A DNA stretch of 48,827 bases, from positions 1 through 48,827 of the forward strand of contig JACQCE010000021.1 of NCBI GenBank assembly GCA_016201765.1, read 5' to 3'. Each line of letters opens with the position of its first letter. Within the stretch, counting starts at the first letter, position 1. The DNA is from Nitrospirota bacterium (GTDB taxonomy: Bacteria; Nitrospirota; Nitrospiria; JACQCE01). The notes under the pieces were generated by a model, which saw only the letters and a list, made by a program, of their open reading frames with translations, did no database searches and was not told the DNA's origin. A program made the position numbers and the translations under genes. Positions 16,451-48,827 of the stretch are shown one piece after another.

Positions 16451-16510
16451 TGAGAATGGAAAGTGGAAAGTGGAAAATAGAGAAGGGCGCATGTCGTATG
16501 AATGCCCTTC
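16451..16510 (+). repeat. Dispersed purine-rich repeat copy 1, with adjacent hairpin
   Basis: TGAGAATGGAAAGTGGAAAG starts at 16451 and continues as further GGAAA units to about 16487. Copies lie at 32350, 42541 (opposite strand) and 48262. Directly after it is an inverted repeat, GAAGGGC (16482-16488) and GCCCTTC (16504-16510), with a 15-nt loop. The segment lies between the yggS-type gene and proC and contains no better candidate gene. Confidence 0.7.
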
Positions 16511-16544: not shown

Positions 16545-17369
16545 ATGACTAAAAAGAGTATGCGATTGGGCATCATCGGCTGCGGCCAGATGGGCGAGGC
16601 GCTGCTGCGCGGGATGCTGACGGCGAAGCTGGTGACGCCCGACCGGGTCCTGGCGACGGATCTGGCTGAGGAACGGATGAAGACGATCGTCCAGCGGTAC
16701 GGCATTCATGGGATGAGGGACGGCCGGGCCGTGGCCAAGGGCGCGGATGTGTTGCTGCTGGCGGTCAAGCCGCAGGGGGTCAACGAGCTGTTCGCGCAAT
16801 TGCGGGGCGCGGTGTCCGACCGGATGCTGGTGATCTCCGTGATCACGGGTGTGCAACTCATCCGGTTGGAGGCGGAGCTGGGCGGAAAAGCCCATGTCGT
16901 TCGGGCCGTGCCCAACACGCCGACGCTGGTCGGCTGCGGGATGACGGCCGTTGCCGGCGGCGCCCATGCGTCGGCCGATGATCTCCGAACGGCGGTCGAT
17001 CTGTTCAATGCGGTGGGCGCAACCCTGGTGGTTGAGGAACGACATCTGGACGCGGTGACCGGGCTGAGCGGCAGCGGTCCGGCCTATGCCTTTGTGATGA
17101 TCGAGGCGTTGGCGGACGGCGGTGTGAAGGCGGGGTTGTCCCGCGAGGTGGCGTTGCAACTGGCCGCCCGCACGTTGCTGGGCGCGGCGCAGTTGCTGTT
17201 GCAGACCGGCGAGCACCCGGGCCAATTGAAGGATCGGGTGGCCTCGCCGGGCGGCACGACCATTGCCGGCCTGCGCGAACTGGAGGCCGGCGGCGTGCGC
17301 GCCGCGCTGATCAATGCCGTCGAGGCGGCGACCCGGCGGGCGGCGGAGTTGGGGCAGGGGAGGAAATAA
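16545..17369 (+). CDS. proC: Pyrroline-5-carboxylate reductase ProC
   Basis: ProC catalyses the last step of proline synthesis, reducing pyrroline-5-carboxylate with NAD(P)H. 'LGIIGCGQMGEALLRGM' is the N-terminal dinucleotide motif. 'VRAVPNTPTLVGCGMTAV' and 'GLSGSGPAYAFVMIEALAD' are family signatures, and 'ASPGGTTIAGL' lies near the C-terminus. I chose the ATG at 16545 (274 residues, close to the E. coli 269). A longer frame from 16470 would translate the upstream repeat-like DNA and adds no conserved residues. Confidence 0.95.
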   Translation: MTKKSMRLGIIGCGQMGEALLRGMLTAKLVTPDRVLATDLAEERMKTIVQRYGIHGMRDGRAVAKGADVLLLAVKPQGVNELFAQLRGAVSDRMLVISVITGVQLIRLEAELGGKAHVVRAVPNTPTLVGCGMTAVAGGAHASADDLRTAVDLFNAVGATLVVEERHLDAVTGLSGSGPAYAFVMIEALADGGVKAGLSREVALQLAARTLLGAAQLLLQTGEHPGQLKDRVASPGGTTIAGLRELEAGGVRAALINAVEAATRRAAELGQGRK

Positions 17370-17372
17370 CAG

Positions 17373-17669
17373 GTGATCATCGCCAATTTTCTTGACGCCC
17401 TCGCCTCCGTGATCGATCTGGTTCTCTGGGCCTACGTCTGGGTGCTGGTGGCGAGGGCGCTGGTGTCGTGGGTCAATCCCGACCCCTACAATCCGATCGT
17501 GCAGGCCTTGTACAAGCTGACGGAACCGGTCCTGTTTCCCGTCCGCCGGCTGTTGGGCGGCCACGGTCTCGGGATCGATTTTTCCCCCCTGATCGTGATC
17601 CTTGTCATTTATTTTTTGCAGAAGTTTTTGGTCCGGACGCTGTATGAGATCGCCATCCAATTGCGGTAG
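17373..17669 (+). CDS. yggT: YggT-family small membrane protein
   Basis: The product is 98 residues with two strongly hydrophobic segments, 'VIDLVLWAYVWVLVARALV' and 'FSPLIVILVIYFLQKFL'. Between them is the family motif region 'WVNPDPYNPIVQALYKLTEP' followed by 'LFPVRRLL'. YggT proteins are found beside the PLP protein, proC or divIVA, and their exact role is unclear (osmotic tolerance or division has been proposed). The start is GTG at 17373 with GGGGAGG about 8 nt upstream. Confidence 0.9.
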   Translation: MIIANFLDALASVIDLVLWAYVWVLVARALVSWVNPDPYNPIVQALYKLTEPVLFPVRRLLGGHGLGIDFSPLIVILVIYFLQKFLVRTLYEIAIQLR

Positions 17670-17801
17670 GCGGGTATTGAAGGTGCCTGATAAATCCAGG
17701 CAGTGGGGACTGCAGAGAAGGGCATTCTATGTTATGGTGTAAGGTACTAAAATCGGACATGACCCCTCGCAGAAAACGCTCGGGGTGAAGGAGATGACGA
17801 T
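17670..17801 (+). other. Intergenic region before divIVA
   Basis: This 132-bp region contains a small inverted repeat, TGCCTG (17684-17689) and CAGGCA (17697-17702), just after yggT, possibly a weak transcription end. ACCCC...GGGGT flanks a 15-nt loop at about 17762-17786. GAAGGAG precedes the divIVA ATG. AT-rich text near 17731-17752 could hold a -10 box, but I could not pair it with a convincing -35. Confidence 0.4.
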
Positions 17802-18326
17802 ATGAACGGCAAATTGACGCCCATCGACATTCAGCAAATCAAATTCGGCCTGGCGTTTCGCGGCTACAGCCGGCAGGAGGTGGATGCGTTTCTCGACAAG
17901 GCGGCCTCGGCGCTGGAGGTGCAGCTGGCGGAGACCCAGGTGATGCGGGAACAGGCCGCGGCGCTGGAGGTGCAGTTGCTGGAGTTGCGGAAAAAAGAGT
18001 CGGCGTTGAACAATACGCTCATCGCGGCGCAGCAGGTGGTCGAAGAGATGAAGCGCAACGCCCAGAAGGAAGTCGATCTGCGGCTGAAGGAGGCCGAATT
18101 GCAGGCCGAACGGCTGATCCAGGATGCCTGGGCCCAACTTCGGCAGGTGACGCAGGAATTGGAAGAGGCGCGACGGGAAAAGCAGCTGTTTCTTGACCGG
18201 TGGAAATCGTCGTTAAAAACGATTGAGCAGGCGCTGACCATGGCGGGTGAGCATGATACGGCGCCGGGCGCGCCATCGGCGCTGGAACGAACCGGAGAGC
18301 GGTCCGGGGGGCACCACCGGTCATAA
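17802..18326 (+). CDS. divIVA: DivIVA-domain protein
   Basis: DivIVA proteins bind curved membrane and help place division or envelope machinery. The N-terminal lipid-binding domain is clear: 'LTPIDIQQIKFGLAFRGYSR' followed by 'QEVDAFLD'. A long heptad-rich region (about residues 30-145, Ala/Leu/Glu/Gln/Lys) should form a coiled coil. The last 25 residues are a disordered Pro/Ser/Gly tail. At 174 residues it is typical. It ends the + strand division block and converges with the minus-strand gene at 18373. Confidence 0.92.
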   Translation: MNGKLTPIDIQQIKFGLAFRGYSRQEVDAFLDKAASALEVQLAETQVMREQAAALEVQLLELRKKESALNNTLIAAQQVVEEMKRNAQKEVDLRLKEAELQAERLIQDAWAQLRQVTQELEEARREKQLFLDRWKSSLKTIEQALTMAGEHDTAPGAPSALERTGERSGGHHRS

Positions 18327-18372
18327 GTCCTGTCCGCTCACGCGGCAGGCGCGACCGATTCTGAGACGGGTT

Positions 18373-18711
18373 TTACGGGGCCGCGGGGTGGCTGACCCAC
18401 GGCAAACGCTCCGCCAGATAGCGGTTGCCCTTGAAGTTCAGCCGCGTCCGGATGTTGGAGACGCCGCGCCGGTGCATCGCGCTGACCAGCGCCTTGAGCG
18501 CTTCCGCCGGGCGCAAGGCGGGGGCCGTCTGCAGTTCGAGCCCTTCGTATTGAAAATAGGCGACGTATCCCTGGGCCGTCCGCCAGATTTCCACATTACG
18601 ATTGAATGATTTGTCCCGACGATCAAACCCTTCGAGTTGATGGATTTCAACGCGGAGCCGGCCGCGGGTCGGTGTGGGAACTTGCGCTGGAGTGGGCGTT
18701 GCCATGGTCAT
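18373..18711 (-). CDS. Conserved-looking hypothetical protein, 112 residues
   Basis: I do not recognise a family. After a Pro/Thr-rich N-terminus of about 16 residues, the protein has alternating polar/hydrophobic strands ('RLRVEIHQLEG', 'NVEIWRTAQGYVAYFQYEGL') and a helix ('RPAEALKALVSAMHRRGV'), suggesting a small alpha/beta fold. No signal peptide, membrane helix or Cys is present. It is supported by a near-consensus promoter just upstream on the same strand and by natural composition. A second ATG at 18705 is a possible start. It converges with divIVA and is monocistronic. Confidence 0.7.
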   Translation of the reverse strand: MTMATPTPAQVPTPTRGRLRVEIHQLEGFDRRDKSFNRNVEIWRTAQGYVAYFQYEGLELQTAPALRPAEALKALVSAMHRRGVSNIRTRLNFKGNRYLAERLPWVSHPAAP

Positions 18712-18731
18712 GATGGCGATCCGAGGGGCTG

Positions 18732-18760
18732 ATTATAGCCGGGCGCTGATCAAGATGCAA
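18732..18760 (-). promoter_or_regulatory. Sigma-70 promoter for the 112-residue hypothetical gene
   Basis: On the minus strand, TTGCAT (18760-18755), a 17-bp spacer and a perfect TATAAT (18737-18732). The predicted transcription start is about 14 nt before the ATG at 18711, leaving almost no leader. Confidence 0.75.
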
Positions 18761-18774
18761 CAGGACGCCTGTGT

Positions 18775-18916
18775 GGGTAGTGGGTCAGTTTCATGGATCC
18801 ACCCGTGGCAAAAATAGGGACACGTCCCAATTTCGTTGAGCGCTGCGCGCCGCATGAGGAAATTGGGACGTGTCCCTATTTTTGAGACCGGTCACGGTGA
18901 AACTGACCCACTACCC
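18775..18916. repeat. Palindromic element, copy A (nested inverted repeats)
   Basis: The inner arms are perfect 25-bp inverted repeats, 18810-18834 and 18859-18883, with core GGGACACGTCCC/GGGACGTGTCCC and a 24-nt GC-rich loop. The outer arms are perfect 19-bp inverted repeats, GGGTAGTGGGTCAGTTTCA (18775-18793) and its complement (18898-18916). Related copies occur at 35957-36088 and 38728-38831. The arms end in A5/T5 runs, so either strand could act as a terminator. The structure resembles a REP/MITE-like mobile palindrome. Confidence 0.9.
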
Positions 18917-19231
18917 CTGTGTGAACGCGTATATATCATAATATTTATGATGGTGCGCTCCCATGACCGATGATGGATATTCACAACATCTTGTATGCGG
19001 ATCAAAATTATGATCGATTGCAGGAGCCATCCGGTCCTTCTGAAACGGAGAAAAGCATCGATGCAGAGGAAAAACTTGATGATTCGTTGCCTAAATTTTG
19101 GGCAATTTGGTCTGAGCCCGCATGGGATGGTCATTGGCACGGCTCATGCGCCGGGGTTATCCACAGTGTTTCCACATAAACTGTGAACAACGCCGTCTTG
19201 GCATGTGGTTTGGCGATGGTGCGCCGTTCTA
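18917..19231 (+). other. AT-rich intergenic region with DnaA-box-like 9-mers
   Basis: This stretch is markedly AT-richer than its surroundings. It contains a perfect inverted repeat ATCATAA/TTATGAT (18935-18951). A perfect DnaA box TTATCCACA lies at 19157-19165, with one-mismatch boxes at 18977-18985 (ATATTCACA) and 19182-19190 (TGTGAACAA, reverse) and a two-mismatch box at 19168-19176. Overlapping short frames on both strands lack ribosome-binding sites and I do not call them genes. Confidence 0.55.
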
Positions 19232-19260
19232 TTGACTCTGAGACATGTGCTTCTTATAAT
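19232..19260 (+). promoter_or_regulatory. Sigma-70 promoter for aroE
   Basis: TTGACT (19232-19237), a 17-bp spacer and TATAAT (19255-19260), nearly consensus. Transcription should begin at about 19267, only about 13 nt before the ATG at 19280. The promoter lies inside the longest open frame and so rules out an earlier aroE start. Confidence 0.8.
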
Positions 19261-19279
19261 CGCACCGGTTCTTGCTCTC

Positions 19280-20200
19280 ATGCCGTCGCCTCCTCTCACC
19301 GCGCATGAATCGGACGCGACTCCGCGTGGAGCCGGCGGGGCGAGGAGACGGTCATCCCTTCCCGCGCTGGTCGGCATTTTCGGCGATCCGGTGGCGCATT
19401 CCCGCTCGCCGGCCATGCACAACGCCGCGTTTCGGGCGTTGAAGCTCAACTATGTGTATCTGCCGTTTGCGGTCACACCGGCCGGGTTGCCCGGTGCCGT
19501 CAACGCGATCCGGGCCCTGGGCATGGCCGGCGTCAATCTGACCATTCCACACAAGGAACGGGTGTTACCGTATCTGGATGGACTGTCCGCCGAGGCTCGA
19601 CGAATCGGCGCCGTCAACACGGTGGTCAATCATCGCGGACGGTTGATCGGCCATAATACCGACGGCCGGGGATTGTTGATGGCCCTGCGGTCGGCATGGG
19701 GTCTCTCTATGCGGGGGCGCGTTGTCTGTCTGATGGGCGCCGGGGGGGCTGCGCGGGCGGTGGCCGCGGCGCTGATGGGCGCCGGAGTCAAACGGTTGAT
19801 CATTGCCAACCGGCACCGTGACCGTGCAAGACGGCTGGCGCGTGCGATTGCCGGGCGCAGTGCGCGCGTCCGGGTGATTGCGCTGTCCGATCTCTCGCTG
19901 GGCCGGATTGCGGTTGATTGCGACTGTTTGATCAATGCGACGTCCATCGGCCTCCAGGCCGGCGATCCGCGCCTGATCAGTCCGACGGTTGTGGGGCGGT
20001 TCCCCTATGTGTGTGATCTGATCTACCGGCCTGCGATGACGCCCCTCCTCCGCGACGCCAGGGCCGCCGGGTGCCGGACCATGAACGGGTTGGGCATGCT
20101 GGTCTATCAAGGCGCGCTGTCGTTTCAGCTCTGGACCGGCCGCAAGCCGCCGATTGCCGTGATGAAGCGCGCCGCCGAAGCGTTCAATACGTCAATCTGA
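19280..20200 (+). CDS. aroE: Shikimate dehydrogenase (NADP+) AroE
   Basis: AroE reduces 3-dehydroshikimate in the aromatic amino-acid pathway. 'GDPVAHSRSPAMHNAAF' binds shikimate, 'NLTIPHKE' holds the catalytic Lys and 'GHNTDGRG' the catalytic Asp. 'MGAGGAARAVAAALMGAG' is the NADP-binding loop, followed by 'IANRHRDRA'. The ATG at 19280 gives 306 residues with about 25 extra N-terminal residues (Pro/Ala/Arg-rich). It is the first in-frame start after the promoter, and no clear Shine-Dalgarno is present on the very short leader. Confidence 0.93.
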   Translation: MPSPPLTAHESDATPRGAGGARRRSSLPALVGIFGDPVAHSRSPAMHNAAFRALKLNYVYLPFAVTPAGLPGAVNAIRALGMAGVNLTIPHKERVLPYLDGLSAEARRIGAVNTVVNHRGRLIGHNTDGRGLLMALRSAWGLSMRGRVVCLMGAGGAARAVAAALMGAGVKRLIIANRHRDRARRLARAIAGRSARVRVIALSDLSLGRIAVDCDCLINATSIGLQAGDPRLISPTVVGRFPYVCDLIYRPAMTPLLRDARAAGCRTMNGLGMLVYQGALSFQLWTGRKPPIAVMKRAAEAFNTSI

Positions 20201-32349: not shown

Positions 32350-32375
32350 TGAGAGTGGAAAGTAGAGAGTGGATG
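32350..32375 (+). repeat. Dispersed purine-rich repeat copy 2
   Basis: TGAGAGTGGAAAGTAGAGAG and following bases match the unit at 16451. The surrounding text repeats CAAGGCG three times (near 32306, 32343 and 32378), echoing the AAGGCGGATTA unit between ftsQ and ftsA. It lies in the ychF-rpsF gap with no better gene candidate. Confidence 0.6.
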
Positions 32376-42536: not shown

Positions 42537-42540
42537 AATC

Positions 42541-42570
42541 CACTCTTTACTTTCCACTTTCCATTCTCAC
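42541..42570 (-). repeat. Dispersed purine-rich repeat copy 3
   Basis: On the minus strand this reads TGAGAATGGAAAGTGGAAAG and continues AAAGAGTGGA. Its first 20 bases equal those of copy 1 at 16451. It lies just beyond the icd hairpin. Confidence 0.7.
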
Positions 42571-42716
42571 GCATTTCGTTTTTCTCATTTATTACTTGTA
42601 GTTGCCATTTAACAGGCCAATTTCCTGCCCTTAGTGGCCAGTTTCCTGTCCATTCCGTCTGATCGCGAAATCCTGCCCTCACACCCCTCGCGCCTCACGT
42701 TTTTTGCTCCATTTCC

Positions 42717-42745
42717 TTGAGATTTTGTTATCGGATCAATATACT
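42717..42745 (+). promoter_or_regulatory. Sigma-70 promoter for the helicase-nuclease gene
   Basis: TTGAGA (42717-42722), a 17-bp spacer and TATACT (42740-42745), each box one base from consensus. It leaves a 5' leader of about 165 nt that includes the inverted repeat at 42802-42842. Confidence 0.7.
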
Positions 42746-42801
42746 TGGGCGGGGTGATTCCGGCCTGCGAGCAGCCAGGCTCACCGCACATATCATTAGT
42801 G

Positions 42802-42842
42802 TTTCCTCTCCACCTGACGGGAGAGGGAAGGTGAGGAGGAAA
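42802..42842. repeat. Layered inverted repeat in the helicase leader
   Basis: TTTCCTCTCCACCT pairs with AGGTGAGGAGGAAA with two mismatches, and CCTCTCC (42805-42811) can alternatively pair with GGAGAGG (42820-42826). The text resembles a widespread REP-like GGGAGAGGG/GGTGAGG palindrome. It could fold in the mRNA leader. Confidence 0.5.
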
Positions 42843-42916
42843 AGGTTGTACTGGAAATCGTATGATCCTCTTATCTGCAGTTGGGAATCCAGCTTAATAC
42901 CAATAGGCGAAGCCTC

Positions 42917-45900
42917 ATGAGCATCGAACGAGATCGGCTTCTTTCCCTTGTCGAGTTCGCTCAGCAAACCGCGCGGATACGGAGCAAGCCTGCAGCGAAC
43001 GTTACTGAACACGGGCTCTTCGCTCTATACGAGCACCAGATGCAAGGACTGCCAGGCATCCGTGTGAATGTTAACGATCCCGAGAGCGAAGATGAAATTT
43101 GGCTTGTTGTTAAGCGACTCCACGAAACGAAGCCGCCGGACATCACTAGCGCGGTGCTTCGGCCGTGGGTGCAGATGACACAAAGCCCGAACGAAGAGCT
43201 GAAGCTACGGGAAGCCATCGACGGCGCAAGCCTCATTGCAGCGGGCACGCATTGCTCTTCGGAATTTCCACTGGAGCAAGGCAAGCCAGCCATCGACCCC
43301 AAGGCGACTGTTATCCTATCTGACTACAACAAGGCTGAGCAGGTCCGAGCCCAACTCGCCGTATACCTTGATACGAGGTGGCGTCCCTGGGCCGAGGAAG
43401 AGAAGCTTCGGCGCAAGACCATCCGCCTTTACTCCCAACTCTTCACGCTGAAGCAGCAGCTCGAGGGCGGTATTGTCGAAGCGCAGCTCGAGCTTGTTTG
43501 GGGTGTAGGCATTTGCATCTGGAACTGCGAGGGCAGCGTGCTGTCCTATCCAATGATAGGACGGCTGGTTGAGATGTCGCTTAACCCTGTGACGGCCGAA
43601 TTGGAAGTTCGGCCGCGAGATGTTGACGCCCGACTTGAGATTGACTGGTACGCCTCTATCGATAATCCCGGTGTTGCCGACTTGGAAAAGGCGGCAAAGG
43701 AGTTCTTCGGGAAGGCTACGACAACCTTTTCGCCGTTCGACCGCGGCACGTTCGAGCCTCTGCTTCGCACCGCGAGTACGAATCTCGACGCAAACGGCAT
43801 CTACTGGCCAAACGAAGTGACGGCAGAGGACCGCACGTTGCCAAAGCCCGATGACAAGCTCAGAATCACCGATACATGGGTATTCTTCGCACGCCCGCGC
43901 ACTAACAACCTTTTTCTGCAGGATTTGGAAAAGCTGAAGAAGCAAGCCGGAGAAGCCAAGGCCTACCCACCCGCTGTAGCCGCCGTCGTGACCGATCCTG
44001 ATACGACCAACCCGGTTGTCGATCTGCCGTCCTTTCGTGGTGTATCCGCCTCGTATCACGTTGAGAACATCACGAGCGGCAAGAAGGTGCGCGATCTCTA
44101 TTTCCCAAAGCCCTTCAACGACGAGCAGGTTCGCATCATCCAGCTATTGGATATTTCCGATGGAGTTGTCGTGCAGGGTCCACCAGGCACTGGCAAGACG
44201 CATACCATCGCTAATGTCATCTGTCACTATCTGGCCGAGGGCAAGCGGGTGCTCGTGACCTCGATGAAGGACCCCGCCCTCGCAGTTCTGCAGGAGCAGT
44301 TGCCGGTCGAAATCCGTCCGCTTGCCATTTCGCTGTTAACCAGCGAGCAGGACGGCATGAAACAGTTCGAGTACGCCATTCATAAGATTGCCTCCGAGGT
44401 TCAGAGTCTCGACCGCAGCAGCACCGCGAGAGCCCTCAGCCATCTTGCGGAATCCATTGATGCCCTCCACGGTAAACTTGCTGGCATCGACCGCAAGATT
44501 GGCGATTGGGCGAAACAGAATCTCGCCAAGGTTGCGCTGGATATGGAGGAAATCGACCCGCAGGACGCGGCGCGAGAAGTGGTTGATAGCGCAGGGCAGT
44601 TCGAGTGGATCACCGACGCGCTTGAAATCACTCCAGCGTTTGCGCCGCAGTTCTCGGACTCGGATGTCGTCCGACTGCGAGAGGCACGCCGCACTCTAGG
44701 TAAAGATATTGATTATCTCGATGCATCACTACCACAGCTTGTCGAGTTTCCTGACTCCAAGACGTTGCTCGAAGTCCACCAGGACCTATCCCAGTTTGAG
44801 AAACTGAAACAGAGAGTGGAACACGGCGACGTTCCAGCACTCGCCGACTCGAGCCAGGAGACGCTCACCTTTGCACAGCAGCTCCTCATCCGCATTGAGA
44901 TGCTGAAGCATCTACGTGACGAGGTAGCGCAGGAACATCGACCCTGGATGGTCGGCATGCGCGAACGGCTGCGCCGCGGTGGCAACGACGGCTTACCGCG
45001 GATGTTGGAAGTCCTTGGCACCGAGCTTGAGCGGGCTGTTGAGCGGCGCAAGGTGTTTTTTAAGCGGCCAGTTACCACGCCGGAAGGCATTGAGCTTGAT
45101 ACCGAGCTTGTGGAGGCCGTGGGCAATCTCACCGAGGGGAAGAGCCCTTTTGGGCTGAAAGGCCTATTCGGTAAGTCCGAGCAGAAAAGACAGCTAGACC
45201 GTATTCGCGTTCTCGGCAATCCACCAGCTGATGCTGAGGGATGGAAGCATGTTGCCGAGCATCTGGCCTTGTTGAAATGCCTGCGCGAACTAGCCTTGCG
45301 CTGGAATGCACTTGCCCACGAGCTTCATCTCGAAGCCGTGCTGGGTGACAAGCCGGGAGACGGCCTGGCTGCTGCCCATGGCTACACTCTTTACCTCAAA
45401 GTGAAAGTCGTGGTGAGCGCGGAAGGCGAACTCTGCACCGCGGCCGCCCACGTTTTCCCTAACTGGCCTCACGCCCGCGAGGTGGCGGATAACGCGCAGT
45501 GCCTATCTGAGCTGGAGCAGGCGCTTCGGCATCACCTCACGAAAAACCGCCTGGCCAACGTATGGGCCAACAAGGAACGCTGCCAAAAGGTGCTGGAAGG
45601 CCGGACCGGCCGCATCATCGATGACCTACGCCACTTCCTCAGTGAGGCGCTGGGTAACCCCACGGTTACGGATTCAGGGATGCAGGCTAAGTGGTCAGCG
45701 CTGATGGCTGAACTCTCACGCGTGCTGAATTTGGGAGCGCATCTCGTTACCGTGCGCGAGGTCTGTGACAAAATAGAAGCCTCCGGAGCGTCGAAGTACG
45801 CCGTAGCACTCAAGCAACCAATTGCGGGCACCGTGGATAGCCTGCTTCCAGACAGTTGGCGCAAAGCTTGGCGGCTGAGACGTCTCGCCACTCACCTCGA

Positions 45901-48229
45901 GTCGATTGACGGGCACGAAGAGCTGAAGAAGTTAGCAAAAGACCGTAATGATGTCGAAAGCGACTTAACGCGCGCCTACCGCGACATTGTGGTGAAGCGT
46001 ACGTGGCTTAAGCTTGCAGAGAATGCCTCCCCCAACATCCGGGCCGCTCTGCAGGCATACCTCAACGCCATACAGAAAATCGGCAAGGACAGGGGTAAGG
46101 GGAAGCGTGCTGTACGCTACCGGCAAGATGCGCGCATGGCGGCATCCCAGGCGAACCCCGCTGTGCCGTGCTGGATAATGCCTCATTACCGCGTGTCGGA
46201 ATCACTGCCTGCGGAGTTGGGCTGCTTCGACCTTGTCGTCATCGACGAAGCATCGCAATCAGACCTTACCGCTTTGCCTTCTCTCTTACGGGCCCAAAAG
46301 GTGCTTATCGTCGGCGACGACAAGCAGGTTTCTCCCGAGGGCGTAGGTCTTGAAGAGGAGAAAATTCGCAGCCTCATGAACCGCTTCCTTGGCAGCCAAG
46401 TGGAGACCTACAGGCCGCAAATGTCACCGGATCGTTCCATCTATGATCTTTTCAAGGTAGTGTTCGCCAAGAGCGCGGTGATGTTGAAAGAACATTTCCG
46501 CTGCGTAGCTCCCATCATCGAGTACTCCAAGCGCGAGTTCTACAATCACGAGCTGCGGCCACTGCGCATACCGAAAGCGTCTGAGCGCCTCGACCCGCCC
46601 CTCATCGACGTGGTAGTGGAAGACGGGTATCGCAAGGGTGATGTTAATCTGCCCGAGGCGCGTTTCATTGTCGATGAGATCAAGGCGATCGTGGAGGATC
46701 CAGCCATGGCTGGCCGCTCCATCGGGGTTGTCTCTCTGCTCGCTGACAAGCAGGCACTGTTGATATGGGATCGACTGACCGATGAGCTTGGACCAGAAAT
46801 CATGCAACGCCATCGCATCACTTGTGGCGATGCGCGTACGTTCCAGGGCAAGGAGCGTGACATCATGTTTCTCTCCATGGTGTCAGCGCCCAACGAGTTG
46901 GGGGGACCGCTCTCCGGCATTATGTATGACCAGCGTTTCAACGTGGCTGCCTCGCGTGCGCGCGATCGGATGTACCTGGTGCGCTCGGTGGAATTGGAAC
47001 ACTTGACCGGGGAGAACCTTCAGCGGCGCAGGCTCATCGGACACTTCGCGGCACCCTTCGCCCAGGATGAGGTGCGCGTGGAGGACCTGCGCAAACTTTG
47101 CGAGTCCCCTTTCGAACGCGAGATGTACGATGAACTCGCGCAGCGTGGCTACTGGGTGACGCCACAAGTGCGGGTCGGCCAGTACCGCATCGACATGGTG
47201 GTGGAGGGACACAATGACGCTCGGCTAGCGATCGAGTGCGACGGCGACAAGTACCACGGTGCGGACAAGTGGGCCGACGACATGCAGCGCCAGCGCGTTC
47301 TGGAACGTGCTGGTTGGATGTTCTGGCGGTGTTTCGCCTCCGCCTTCATCCGTCGACGAAAGGACATACTGGATGACCTCTTGAAGATGTTGACCAAGCG
47401 CGGTATTGAACCGATTGGGGCCGAAGGCGCACCAAGGAGCGTGCATACCGAGCACCGTGTCGTGTCTTCTGTGAATAAGCCGGTGAACCAGGATACCCCG
47501 ATACCTGATGAAGTTCCTGAGAACGCCCAGGCGTCGATGCCTGCTGCACCGCCGGCACAATGCAGTTCAGCAAGAGGAGACGTGCCTCCAGTAGAAGCTC
47601 GGGTGCATCTGTCGGCCGATGATGGAGACCTCCTTGACAGAGGACGAGTGCTCGTTCCTTCAGTCAGATTGGGAGATGCTAACCTACCATCAAGCGATTA
47701 TGTGGCGTATGCCGGGCCGGCCGGGAATGATCCTCGGAGCGTCAGCTTGGATGTAGTCTCCGATGGTATAGTCCGAATCATAGAGGTTGAGGGGCCAGTT
47801 GTTGCGAAGCGAGTCTATGACATCTACCTGTCGGGCTGCGGCATCAAGCGGATGGGCAAAGAACTCAAGAGGGCCATGAACAAGGCGCTCGCGCACGCTA
47901 TTCGGCAGGGACACGTTGTTTCTGAAGATGAGGCAGGCAAGGGTGGTCTACTCTTCTCTGTAGTTCGAGCGAAGGGGAGTCCGCCGATTAGATTGCGAAG
48001 CAGGGGGCCAAGATTATTAGAAGAGATTCCGCCGAGCGAACTACAAGTTATAGCAAGATACTTGGTGGAACGGCACGGTTTTGCATCAGGTAGTGAAGAA
48101 CATCTGCGTGCAGTCTTGGAGAGCTCGGATCTCAAACGACTAACCACGCAAGTCAGCACGACGTTGCTGAAGATCCTTGAGAGGAGTTTCCCATATGTGG
48201 ACGAGTTTTTGAAAGGCATACACAAATAG
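42917..48229 (+). CDS. Giant SF1 helicase fused to PD-(D/E)XK (Vsr/MTES_1575-like) nuclease; candidate defence protein
   Basis: The product is 1770 residues. Residues 1-400 contain no family I recognise. SF1 (Upf1/COG1112-like) motifs follow: Walker A GPPGTGKT at 421-428, motif II DEASQ at 1110-1114, motif III GDDKQ at 1133-1137 and motif VI NVAASRARDR at 1342-1351. About 680 helical residues are inserted between motifs I and II. A nuclease domain spans about 1390-1480, with Asp1426 and Glu1440-Cys-Asp-Gly as the likely active site. A DUF3320-like domain lies at about 1610-1690. Codon use is AT-richer than in the neighbours. The start ATG at 42917 has only a weak Shine-Dalgarno; an in-frame TTG at 42881 is an alternative. 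Confidence 0.88.
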   Translation: MSIERDRLLSLVEFAQQTARIRSKPAANVTEHGLFALYEHQMQGLPGIRVNVNDPESEDEIWLVVKRLHETKPPDITSAVLRPWVQMTQSPNEELKLREAIDGASLIAAGTHCSSEFPLEQGKPAIDPKATVILSDYNKAEQVRAQLAVYLDTRWRPWAEEEKLRRKTIRLYSQLFTLKQQLEGGIVEAQLELVWGVGICIWNCEGSVLSYPMIGRLVEMSLNPVTAELEVRPRDVDARLEIDWYASIDNPGVADLEKAAKEFFGKATTTFSPFDRGTFEPLLRTASTNLDANGIYWPNEVTAEDRTLPKPDDKLRITDTWVFFARPRTNNLFLQDLEKLKKQAGEAKAYPPAVAAVVTDPDTTNPVVDLPSFRGVSASYHVENITSGKKVRDLYFPKPFNDEQVRIIQLLDISDGVVVQGPPGTGKTHTIANVICHYLAEGKRVLVTSMKDPALAVLQEQLPVEIRPLAISLLTSEQDGMKQFEYAIHKIASEVQSLDRSSTARALSHLAESIDALHGKLAGIDRKIGDWAKQNLAKVALDMEEIDPQDAAREVVDSAGQFEWITDALEITPAFAPQFSDSDVVRLREARRTLGKDIDYLDASLPQLVEFPDSKTLLEVHQDLSQFEKLKQRVEHGDVPALADSSQETLTFAQQLLIRIEMLKHLRDEVAQEHRPWMVGMRERLRRGGNDGLPRMLEVLGTELERAVERRKVFFKRPVTTPEGIELDTELVEAVGNLTEGKSPFGLKGLFGKSEQKRQLDRIRVLGNPPADAEGWKHVAEHLALLKCLRELALRWNALAHELHLEAVLGDKPGDGLAAAHGYTLYLKVKVVVSAEGELCTAAAHVFPNWPHAREVADNAQCLSELEQALRHHLTKNRLANVWANKERCQKVLEGRTGRIIDDLRHFLSEALGNPTVTDSGMQAKWSALMAELSRVLNLGAHLVTVREVCDKIEASGASKYAVALKQPIAGTVDSLLPDSWRKAWRLRRLATHLESIDGHEELKKLAKDRNDVESDLTRAYRDIVVKRTWLKLAENASPNIRAALQAYLNAIQKIGKDRGKGKRAVRYRQDARMAASQANPAVPCWIMPHYRVSESLPAELGCFDLVVIDEASQSDLTALPSLLRAQKVLIVGDDKQVSPEGVGLEEEKIRSLMNRFLGSQVETYRPQMSPDRSIYDLFKVVFAKSAVMLKEHFRCVAPIIEYSKREFYNHELRPLRIPKASERLDPPLIDVVVEDGYRKGDVNLPEARFIVDEIKAIVEDPAMAGRSIGVVSLLADKQALLIWDRLTDELGPEIMQRHRITCGDARTFQGKERDIMFLSMVSAPNELGGPLSGIMYDQRFNVAASRARDRMYLVRSVELEHLTGENLQRRRLIGHFAAPFAQDEVRVEDLRKLCESPFEREMYDELAQRGYWVTPQVRVGQYRIDMVVEGHNDARLAIECDGDKYHGADKWADDMQRQRVLERAGWMFWRCFASAFIRRRKDILDDLLKMLTKRGIEPIGAEGAPRSVHTEHRVVSSVNKPVNQDTPIPDEVPENAQASMPAAPPAQCSSARGDVPPVEARVHLSADDGDLLDRGRVLVPSVRLGDANLPSSDYVAYAGPAGNDPRSVSLDVVSDGIVRIIEVEGPVVAKRVYDIYLSGCGIKRMGKELKRAMNKALAHAIRQGHVVSEDEAGKGGLLFSVVRAKGSPPIRLRSRGPRLLEEIPPSELQVIARYLVERHGFASGSEEHLRAVLESSDLKRLTTQVSTTLLKILERSFPYVDEFLKGIHK

Positions 48230-48261
48230 TGTGTTGTATGAGCCCAGGGTCGGACCATTTG

Positions 48262-48294
48262 GGAAATGCGGAAAATGGAAAGTAGAAAGAATAA
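48262..48294 (+). repeat. Dispersed purine-rich repeat copy 4, beside a GGTCGGACCAT direct repeat
   Basis: GCGGAAAATGGAAAGTAGAA resembles copies 1-3. GGTCGGACCAT occurs on either side (about 48249 and 48303). The 187-bp gap between the helicase and the transposase shows nothing else I can name. Confidence 0.5.
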
Positions 48295-48416
48295 CGCCGC
48301 GTGGTCGGACCATGAGAACAGCGTGATTTTGTGAGGGAAAGCGTCAAAATCGACGGCTAAATTGGCCTTAAACGGGGTGTTTTGAGCTCAGAATGGTGTG
48401 GTAATAATCCTCCAAT

Positions 48417-48827
48417 ATGGCCCGCGCGAACCGCCACTATCTACCTGACCGAGTCTGGCATCTGACCCACCGATGCCATCAGCGGGCCTTTCTGCTCAAA
48501 TTTGCCAAGGATAAGCAGCGCTGGCTGGCCTGGCTGGCGGACGCGCGCCGGCGCTTTGGGCTTCGGGTGCTCAATTACGTGGTGACGTCCAATCATATCC
48601 ATCTGCTGGTGTGGGACAGCGGCGAGGGGGCGATTCCGAACAGTCTGCAACTCGTTGCCGGCCGGACGGCGCAGGAATTCAATCAACGGAAAGGGCGCAA
48701 GGGGGCGTTTTGGGAGGATCGGTATCATGCGACGGCGGTGGAGACCGATGGGCATTTGATTCGCTGCCTGGTCTACATGGATCTGAACATGGTGCGGGCC
48801 GGGGTGGTGGCGCATCCGGCGGAGTGG
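48417..48827 (+). CDS. REP-associated tyrosine transposase (RAYT, Y1_Tnp family), 3' end outside the window
   Basis: 137 codons are visible, with no stop before the window edge. 'MARANRHYLPDRVWHLTHRC' is the usual RAYT opening ('R...Y.P...VH'). The HUH metal motif appears as 'SNHIHLLVW', and the catalytic Tyr region as 'LVYMDLNMVRAGVV', followed by 'HPAEW'. 'GAFWEDRYHATAV' is a further family block. RAYTs are single-domain, domesticated relatives of IS200/IS605 transposases that mobilise REP palindromes. The ATG at 48417 has no clear ribosome-binding site. Confidence 0.93.
   Translation, partial: MARANRHYLPDRVWHLTHRCHQRAFLLKFAKDKQRWLAWLADARRRFGLRVLNYVVTSNHIHLLVWDSGEGAIPNSLQLVAGRTAQEFNQRKGRKGAFWEDRYHATAVETDGHLIRCLVYMDLNMVRAGVVAHPAEW

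Follow-up and report, generated by a model that had tools for sequence, protein, structure and literature searches.

A probably horizontally acquired helicase-nuclease gene of a Nitrospirota bacterium, encoding a probable single-protein defence enzyme

The gene described here lies in a 48,827-nucleotide stretch of DNA from a Nitrospirota bacterium, called the window below, which is an entire contig (G000:C100) of a 1.96 Mb assembly that is 86% complete and divided over 121 contigs. It is found on the forward strand, as are all features of its product given below, and forms a single uninterrupted frame from the ATG at 42917 to the stop at 48229, encoding 1770 residues. The gene is real and intact. 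Its product joins a superfamily 1 (SF1) helicase to a C-terminal nuclease and is likely to be a horizontally acquired anti-phage or anti-plasmid defence enzyme acting as a single protein, of a candidate kind that is already catalogued. ATG 42917 was taken as the start because the similarity to the homologue L020 (78% identical over 1000 residues) begins 8 bases before it; in the family alignment the starts of other relatives coincide with the same position. An alternative TTG upstream, at 42881, would lengthen the protein by 12 residues. A first-pass annotation, made from the DNA letters alone, had described a helicase-nuclease of 1770 residues in one polypeptide, and all of its domains were found within this frame.

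The protein is a UPF1/SEN1/DNA2-like SF1 helicase, both by its motifs and by its fold. The Q motif (N401, Q404) and the Walker A sequence of motif I (GPPGTGK, residues 421-427), together at 44117-44200, are invariant in 42 aligned sequences. Motifs II to VI (VVIDEASQ, GDDKQ, EHFRC, FQGxERD and NVAASRARD) follow at residues 1102-1360 (46220-46996), and the series from the Q motif through motif VI is conserved in the aligned family. K427 was present in 52 of 52 aligned sequences, and D1110, E1111, Q1137, R1195, Q1310 and R1347 in every sequence covering them. Both helicase halves, AAA_11 and AAA_12 (the latter with E 2.8e-12), were recognised by Pfam. When the profile of the core was compared with solved structures, UPF1, SEN1, senataxin and DNA2 were retrieved, and in a Foldseek search with the model of the core the top ranks were taken by senataxin (SETX), IGHMBP2, SEN1, UPF1 and Dna2, with E values of about 1e-11 for the first four. 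Motif I (421-428) and motif II (1108-1111) are separated by approximately 680 residues, the gap that the first-pass annotation had pointed out. In the AlphaFold2 model of residues 392-1520, with a mean predicted local distance difference test (pLDDT) score of 87.8 and a predicted template modelling (pTM) score of 0.67, the core is split after motif I by a nearly all-helical insertion of approximately 620 residues (about 478-1095; 44348-46201).

In front of the core lies an N-terminal domain (residues 1-390; 42917-44086) that is kept across 40 aligned relatives. The AlphaFold2 model of residues 1-420 (mean pLDDT 86.8) has a long helix at 140-184, followed by strands at 191-233 in a beta-rich part. 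The first-pass annotation had called this region unknown, and the model gave zero PDB matches at E < 0.001 in Foldseek. Only weak matches were obtained by profile search (best E 0.0075), residues 1-420 gave one marginal match in a viral library, to an AAA protein (E 2e-3), and neither HEPN nor DUF4011 was detected in the N-terminus by Pfam. It is possible that residues 140-233 resemble the stalk and 1B elements found ahead of motif I in UPF1-type helicases, a likeness of topology only, to which Foldseek gives no support.

Residues 1399-1492 (47111-47392) are predicted to form a Vsr-type PD-(D/E)XK nuclease belonging to the MTES_1575 restriction endonuclease (REase) domain PF18741. The match (E 8.7e-31) scored 106.3 bits against a Pfam cut-off of 38.2, and the acidic residues expected of the active site are in place, as proposed earlier for Asp1426 and Glu1440. 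The catalytic residues span 47192-47242, and among the 49 sequences that reach the site D1426 (47192-47194) is found in 47, E1440 (47234-47236) in 47 and D1442 (47240-47242) in 46. The three deviating sequences are distant Bacillota members. The alignment columns of the nuclease also matched the endonuclease-like structure 3hrl_A in a profile search (E 2.4e-5).

The C-terminal module (approximately residues 1590-1770) contains a DUF3320-like winged helix at residues 1611-1651 (47747-47869; E 7.4e-5). The DUF3320 domain named in the first-pass annotation is present as a likeness, with 23.1 bits against a Pfam cut-off of 25, whereas the relative L009 reaches 30.4 bits and passes the cut-off. DUF3320 has been interpreted as a winged helix-turn-helix (wHTH) domain (PMC3710099). 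Most close relatives stop shortly past the nuclease, near residue 1500-1540, and tails resembling that of the window protein were seen in L100, L009, L086 and L046. A GreA/GreB C-terminal domain was found in 4 of the 19 relative tails that were scanned, and the other tails had an Lsr2 DNA-binding domain or no assignment. In L056 and L058 the GreA/GreB domain is fused behind the nuclease, and by appearance the same holds for L033 and L101; the L056 and L058 tails suggest a link to RNA polymerase. Because the tails differ among relatives (winged helix, GreA/GreB, Lsr2), the C-terminus looks like an exchangeable module, plausibly serving recruitment.

One-gene anti-phage defence is the most likely function because relatives of the gene, carried by plasmids and mobile elements, are found next to known anti-phage systems. 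On Acinetobacter plasmids (L138, L140, L176, L177) the relative lies 63 nt past brxL of a BREX operon, on Sphingobium plasmids 127 nt after a type III res gene, with AbiE close by in one of them, and in Chromobacterium piscinae about 115 nt behind the Wadjet genes jetC-jetD. In Diaphorobacter, brxC is approximately 4 kb from the relative. In L100 an HsdM-type methyltransferase gene follows the relative after about 200 nt, and 3 kb upstream there is a gene for a large serine recombinase. Among the Variovorax plasmids, a DUF4194 (JetB-like) block is near one relative and AbiE near another, and TIGR02678-80 genes lie alongside a more distant homologue in Streptomyces. The relative at L102:9288-12904 shares its contig with a phage terminase large subunit gene, at a distance of 6.4 kb, and with a ParB-N/DNA methylase fusion; judging from this contig, phages or prophages may carry the helicase-nuclease family. 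In a PADLOC scan at 1e-10, 123 neighbouring open reading frames (ORFs) matched 77 families, including type I methylases (three members), JetC, JetD and BrxA, and 123 ORFs from random regions of genomes of the class matched 37 families, mostly as generic homologues. As a separate observation, a DUF262 gene precedes pglZ in the BREX operon of L177.

No conserved partner gene adjoining the relatives was found. A conserved small upstream partner was considered and rejected, as such a gene was seen on no more than two plasmids of Variovorax and one of Fusobacteria. In the former (L136:9729-9986 and L137:9795-9992) a small ribbon-helix-helix-looking ORF shares 4 nt with the beginning of the relative's gene and is possibly a coupled regulator, and in the latter a gene for a PC4/YdbC-family single-stranded DNA-binding protein (L179:6730-6957) lies 14 nt upstream of the relative. 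The surroundings suggest that the family is associated with defence islands without a conserved partner, the window copy itself excepted. The earlier proposal of a single-gene defence system is thus supported indirectly, by the defence neighbours in several lineages, by the lack of a conserved partner and by the best match in PADLOC, the single-gene candidate PDC-S37.

Several points weigh against this reading. The window copy has no defence neighbour, being bordered by icd and, on its other side, by a transposase gene next to the contig end, and several close relatives (L032, L021, L035) as well as the Hymenobacter relatives had no defence gene among the neighbours examined. The neighbour survey is suggestive only, since it relied on crude ORF calls, a single random control from one class and overlapping PADLOC models, and plasmid records from one lineage are not independent. 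PDC-S37 is itself a computational candidate.

The window copy was probably acquired horizontally, because it is AT-rich for its contig, no homologue stands beside icd in relatives of the class and the protein branches among other phyla; its patchy occurrence is part of the same basis. Homologues at E <= 1e-30 were found in 11 of the 98 searched genomes of the class, and the 80 homologue loci that were kept come from genomes of several phyla. Homologues were also carried by 5 IMG/VR contigs and by 450 plasmid records, a number that includes distant helicases, 22 of these records having at least 80% coverage. In the tree the window protein pairs with L020, from an unclassified bacterium, and next with L100, L022, L102 and L032, at a distance from those homologues that belong to its own class (L006, L007, L010-L012), and phyla are intermixed. 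The icd gene is present in 89 of the 98 class genomes, and none of the relatives inspected had a homologue beside it (fifteen stretches, one without an icd call and none from the same order); the surroundings of icd vary between families among the genomes compared. In L032, too, icd is in the vicinity: a monomeric icd (17256-19433) and the gene of the relative are separated by about 7.4 kb, probably by coincidence. Composition was compared inside the contig. The guanine-plus-cytosine (GC) content of the gene is 57.1%, below that of all other long ORFs of the window (minimum 59.4%), and the GC content at third codon positions is 0.65, compared to 0.89 in icd and 0.85 in anmK.

The first-pass annotation had likewise called the gene AT-richer than its neighbours and had placed it on an apparently acquired segment, with its own near-consensus promoter and with flanks of repeats and a REP-associated tyrosine transposase (RAYT). 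Acquisition stood on composition, occurrence, absence beside icd and the tree, but not on the promoter or the repeats. The sigma-70-like site TTGAGA-17-TATACT (42717-42745, forward strand) is not above chance, one being found against 0.4 +/- 0.6 expected, and the upstream sequence is not shared by L020, so the promoter was rejected. Copies of a heptamer repeat, an ACTTTCC array, do flank the gene upstream (42543-42568) and, inverted, downstream (48270-48290). However, arrays of the 7-base unit ACTTTCC/ACTCTCC, in both orientations, occur at 88 places in the genome, compared to 1 for a reversed-pattern control, and therefore the flanking copies are no mark of acquisition and their role as element ends was ruled out. 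Further arrays lie in the window at 16453-16478 and 32352-32370 and at approximately 80 other places genome-wide. The RAYT was confirmed as a Y1_Tnp ORF on the forward strand (48417-48827; PF01797, E 7e-10), cut by the contig end and one of four in the genome. No RNA families were found within the segment.

A working mechanism may be proposed for the defence enzyme. The C-terminal module would bring the enzyme to nucleic acid, and the N-terminal domain and the helical insertion would restrain the motor-nuclease until foreign or aberrant DNA engages the motor; single-stranded/double-stranded junctions in phage DNA undergoing replication or transcription are a candidate trigger. ATP-driven translocation would then feed the strand into the C-terminal nuclease for nicking or cutting, with loading and release under the control of the C-terminal module and the N-terminal domain. 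By analogy with the UPF1/DNA2 and Vsr families, we anticipate movement in the 5'->3' direction and DNA, not RNA, as substrate. Co-residence with restriction, BREX and Wadjet would fit a backup role against DNA that has got past these systems. More speculatively, the clade might constitute a class of motor-nuclease defence of its own: the so far unmatched N-terminal domain would sense the invader, and the swappable C-terminal module would set recruitment to bare DNA, to AT-rich xenogeneic DNA or to transcribing RNA polymerase; we put this forward only tentatively.

The choice of DNA as substrate is the point at which an alternative within defence has to be weighed. The top fold matches of the core, SETX, IGHMBP2, SEN1 and UPF1, are RNA helicases, and the enzyme could be a defence enzyme directed at RNA, with a UPF1-like motor that acts on this substrate, as has been suggested for CnuH of CoCoNuT, and a Vsr-like domain that cuts it. 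RNA has been argued to be the target of systems that combine UPF1-like helicases with Vsr or HEPN effectors (PMC11090510), and the GreA/GreB domain of some relatives suggests closeness to transcription. Vsr/PD-(D/E)XK enzymes cut mostly DNA, however, DNA-binding modules of the winged-helix and Lsr2 types occur among the tails, Dna2, a DNA enzyme, is comparably related, and no McrBC was found in the window genome. We consider an RNA target unlikely.

The contexts of the relatives also bear on whom the enzyme serves. The terminase on the L102 contig, the serine recombinase near L100, the many plasmids and the RAYT adjacent in the window would all fit a role in the maintenance of mobile elements, or as their weapon in competition between plasmids, phages and satellites, with any benefit to the host incidental. 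This overlaps with host defence instead of excluding it, and the gene is also found on chromosomes without visible element genes, and its proximity to BREX and restriction operons is characteristic of defence islands; as the primary function we regard it as rather improbable.

The likeness of the core to Dna2 and UPF1, by fold and sequence, could also belong to a Dna2- or AddAB-like helicase-nuclease acting in host repair or recombination on the cell's own ends or flaps, and there are repair enzymes among the relatives of Vsr. Of a core repair gene one would expect conservation and a composition that matches, whereas this gene was not found in 87 of the 98 class genomes, does not adjoin icd in those relatives that were checked and is often on plasmids and next to defence genes, and we give a repair function little credence. 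It is very improbable that the gene is an orphan or decaying and without function, as the contig edge and the lack of defence neighbours in the window might hint, considering that its 1770-codon frame is open, all motifs and catalytic residues are intact and the match to L020 (1000 residues, 78% identical) has no disruption.

Single-protein defence thus remains the reading that we prefer, and it gives a widespread candidate family definite surroundings, immediately behind genes of BREX, type III restriction and Wadjet systems as well as on plasmids and a phage contig. K427, E1111, D1426 and E1440 are clear residues for mutation, and the variable C-terminus yields a simple targeting hypothesis that can be tested by domain swaps between relatives.

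Among known systems, the best match by far is PDC-S37 (PDLC05009), a single-gene candidate of PADLOC-DB (E 4.5e-76), as found by the PADLOC check that the first-pass annotation had recommended. The match spans the insertion, helicase, nuclease and tail, with the best stretch at positions 702-1532 of the 1550-position profile, whereas the N-terminal part aligns poorly. PDC-S37 was the best PADLOC match also for five tested relatives. PDCs have been described as mostly unvalidated (PMC12988326). With the search terms used, no papers naming PDC-S37, ProA or the PF18741 label were found. With the anti-phage protein ProA (NCBIfam NF058533) the order of helicase, nuclease and tail is shared, and residues 412-1737 match its profile at 662-1899. 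The score is 239.5 bits against a cut-off of 1500, so the protein is not a member, the five relatives are likewise far below the cut-off, and the N-terminus of ProA is longer and different. With Hhe (NCBIfam NF042953 and PADLOC) the second helicase half and the nuclease align (residues 1054-1495), but the 149 bits are far below the cut-off of 2000, and Hhe has DUF4011, which Pfam did not detect here.

The MkoA and MkoC proteins of Mokosh align with the UPF1-like helicase core (E 1e-29 and 5e-28), and the match is limited to the helicase. Mokosh type II has a PLD nuclease. The nuclease of the window protein is PF18741 and no PLD domain was detected by Pfam, so membership of Mokosh type II was rejected, in agreement with the earlier remark that the protein differs from standard Mokosh.

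The architecture is, on the other hand, less new than that annotation had implied. MTES_1575 of Microbacterium testaceum, the protein after which PF18741 is named, was described in 2013 as an SF1 helicase with a Vsr-type REase and a wHTH overlapping DUF3320 (PMC3710099). These parts are common to both proteins, but MTES_1575 additionally has HEPN and transglutaminase domains, undetected here by Pfam, and two wHTH compared to the one DUF3320 of the window protein. CnuH of CoCoNuT type III-B has a UPF1-like SF1 helicase, a large helical insertion after Walker A and a directly fused Vsr-like nuclease (PMC11090510), all of which it shares with the window protein. CoCoNuTs have McrB/McrC-type partners, whereas none was found for the window protein: no PF10117/McrBC occurs in the 86%-complete genome, which covers the locus as far as the contig end, and none is annotated beside the plasmid relatives, so membership of CoCoNuT type III-B was rejected. 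CnuH of type III-B is nevertheless the closest mechanistic analogue and MTES_1575 the architectural prototype, and what is less described in the present protein is its unmatched N-terminal domain and its C-terminal module, which varies between relatives.

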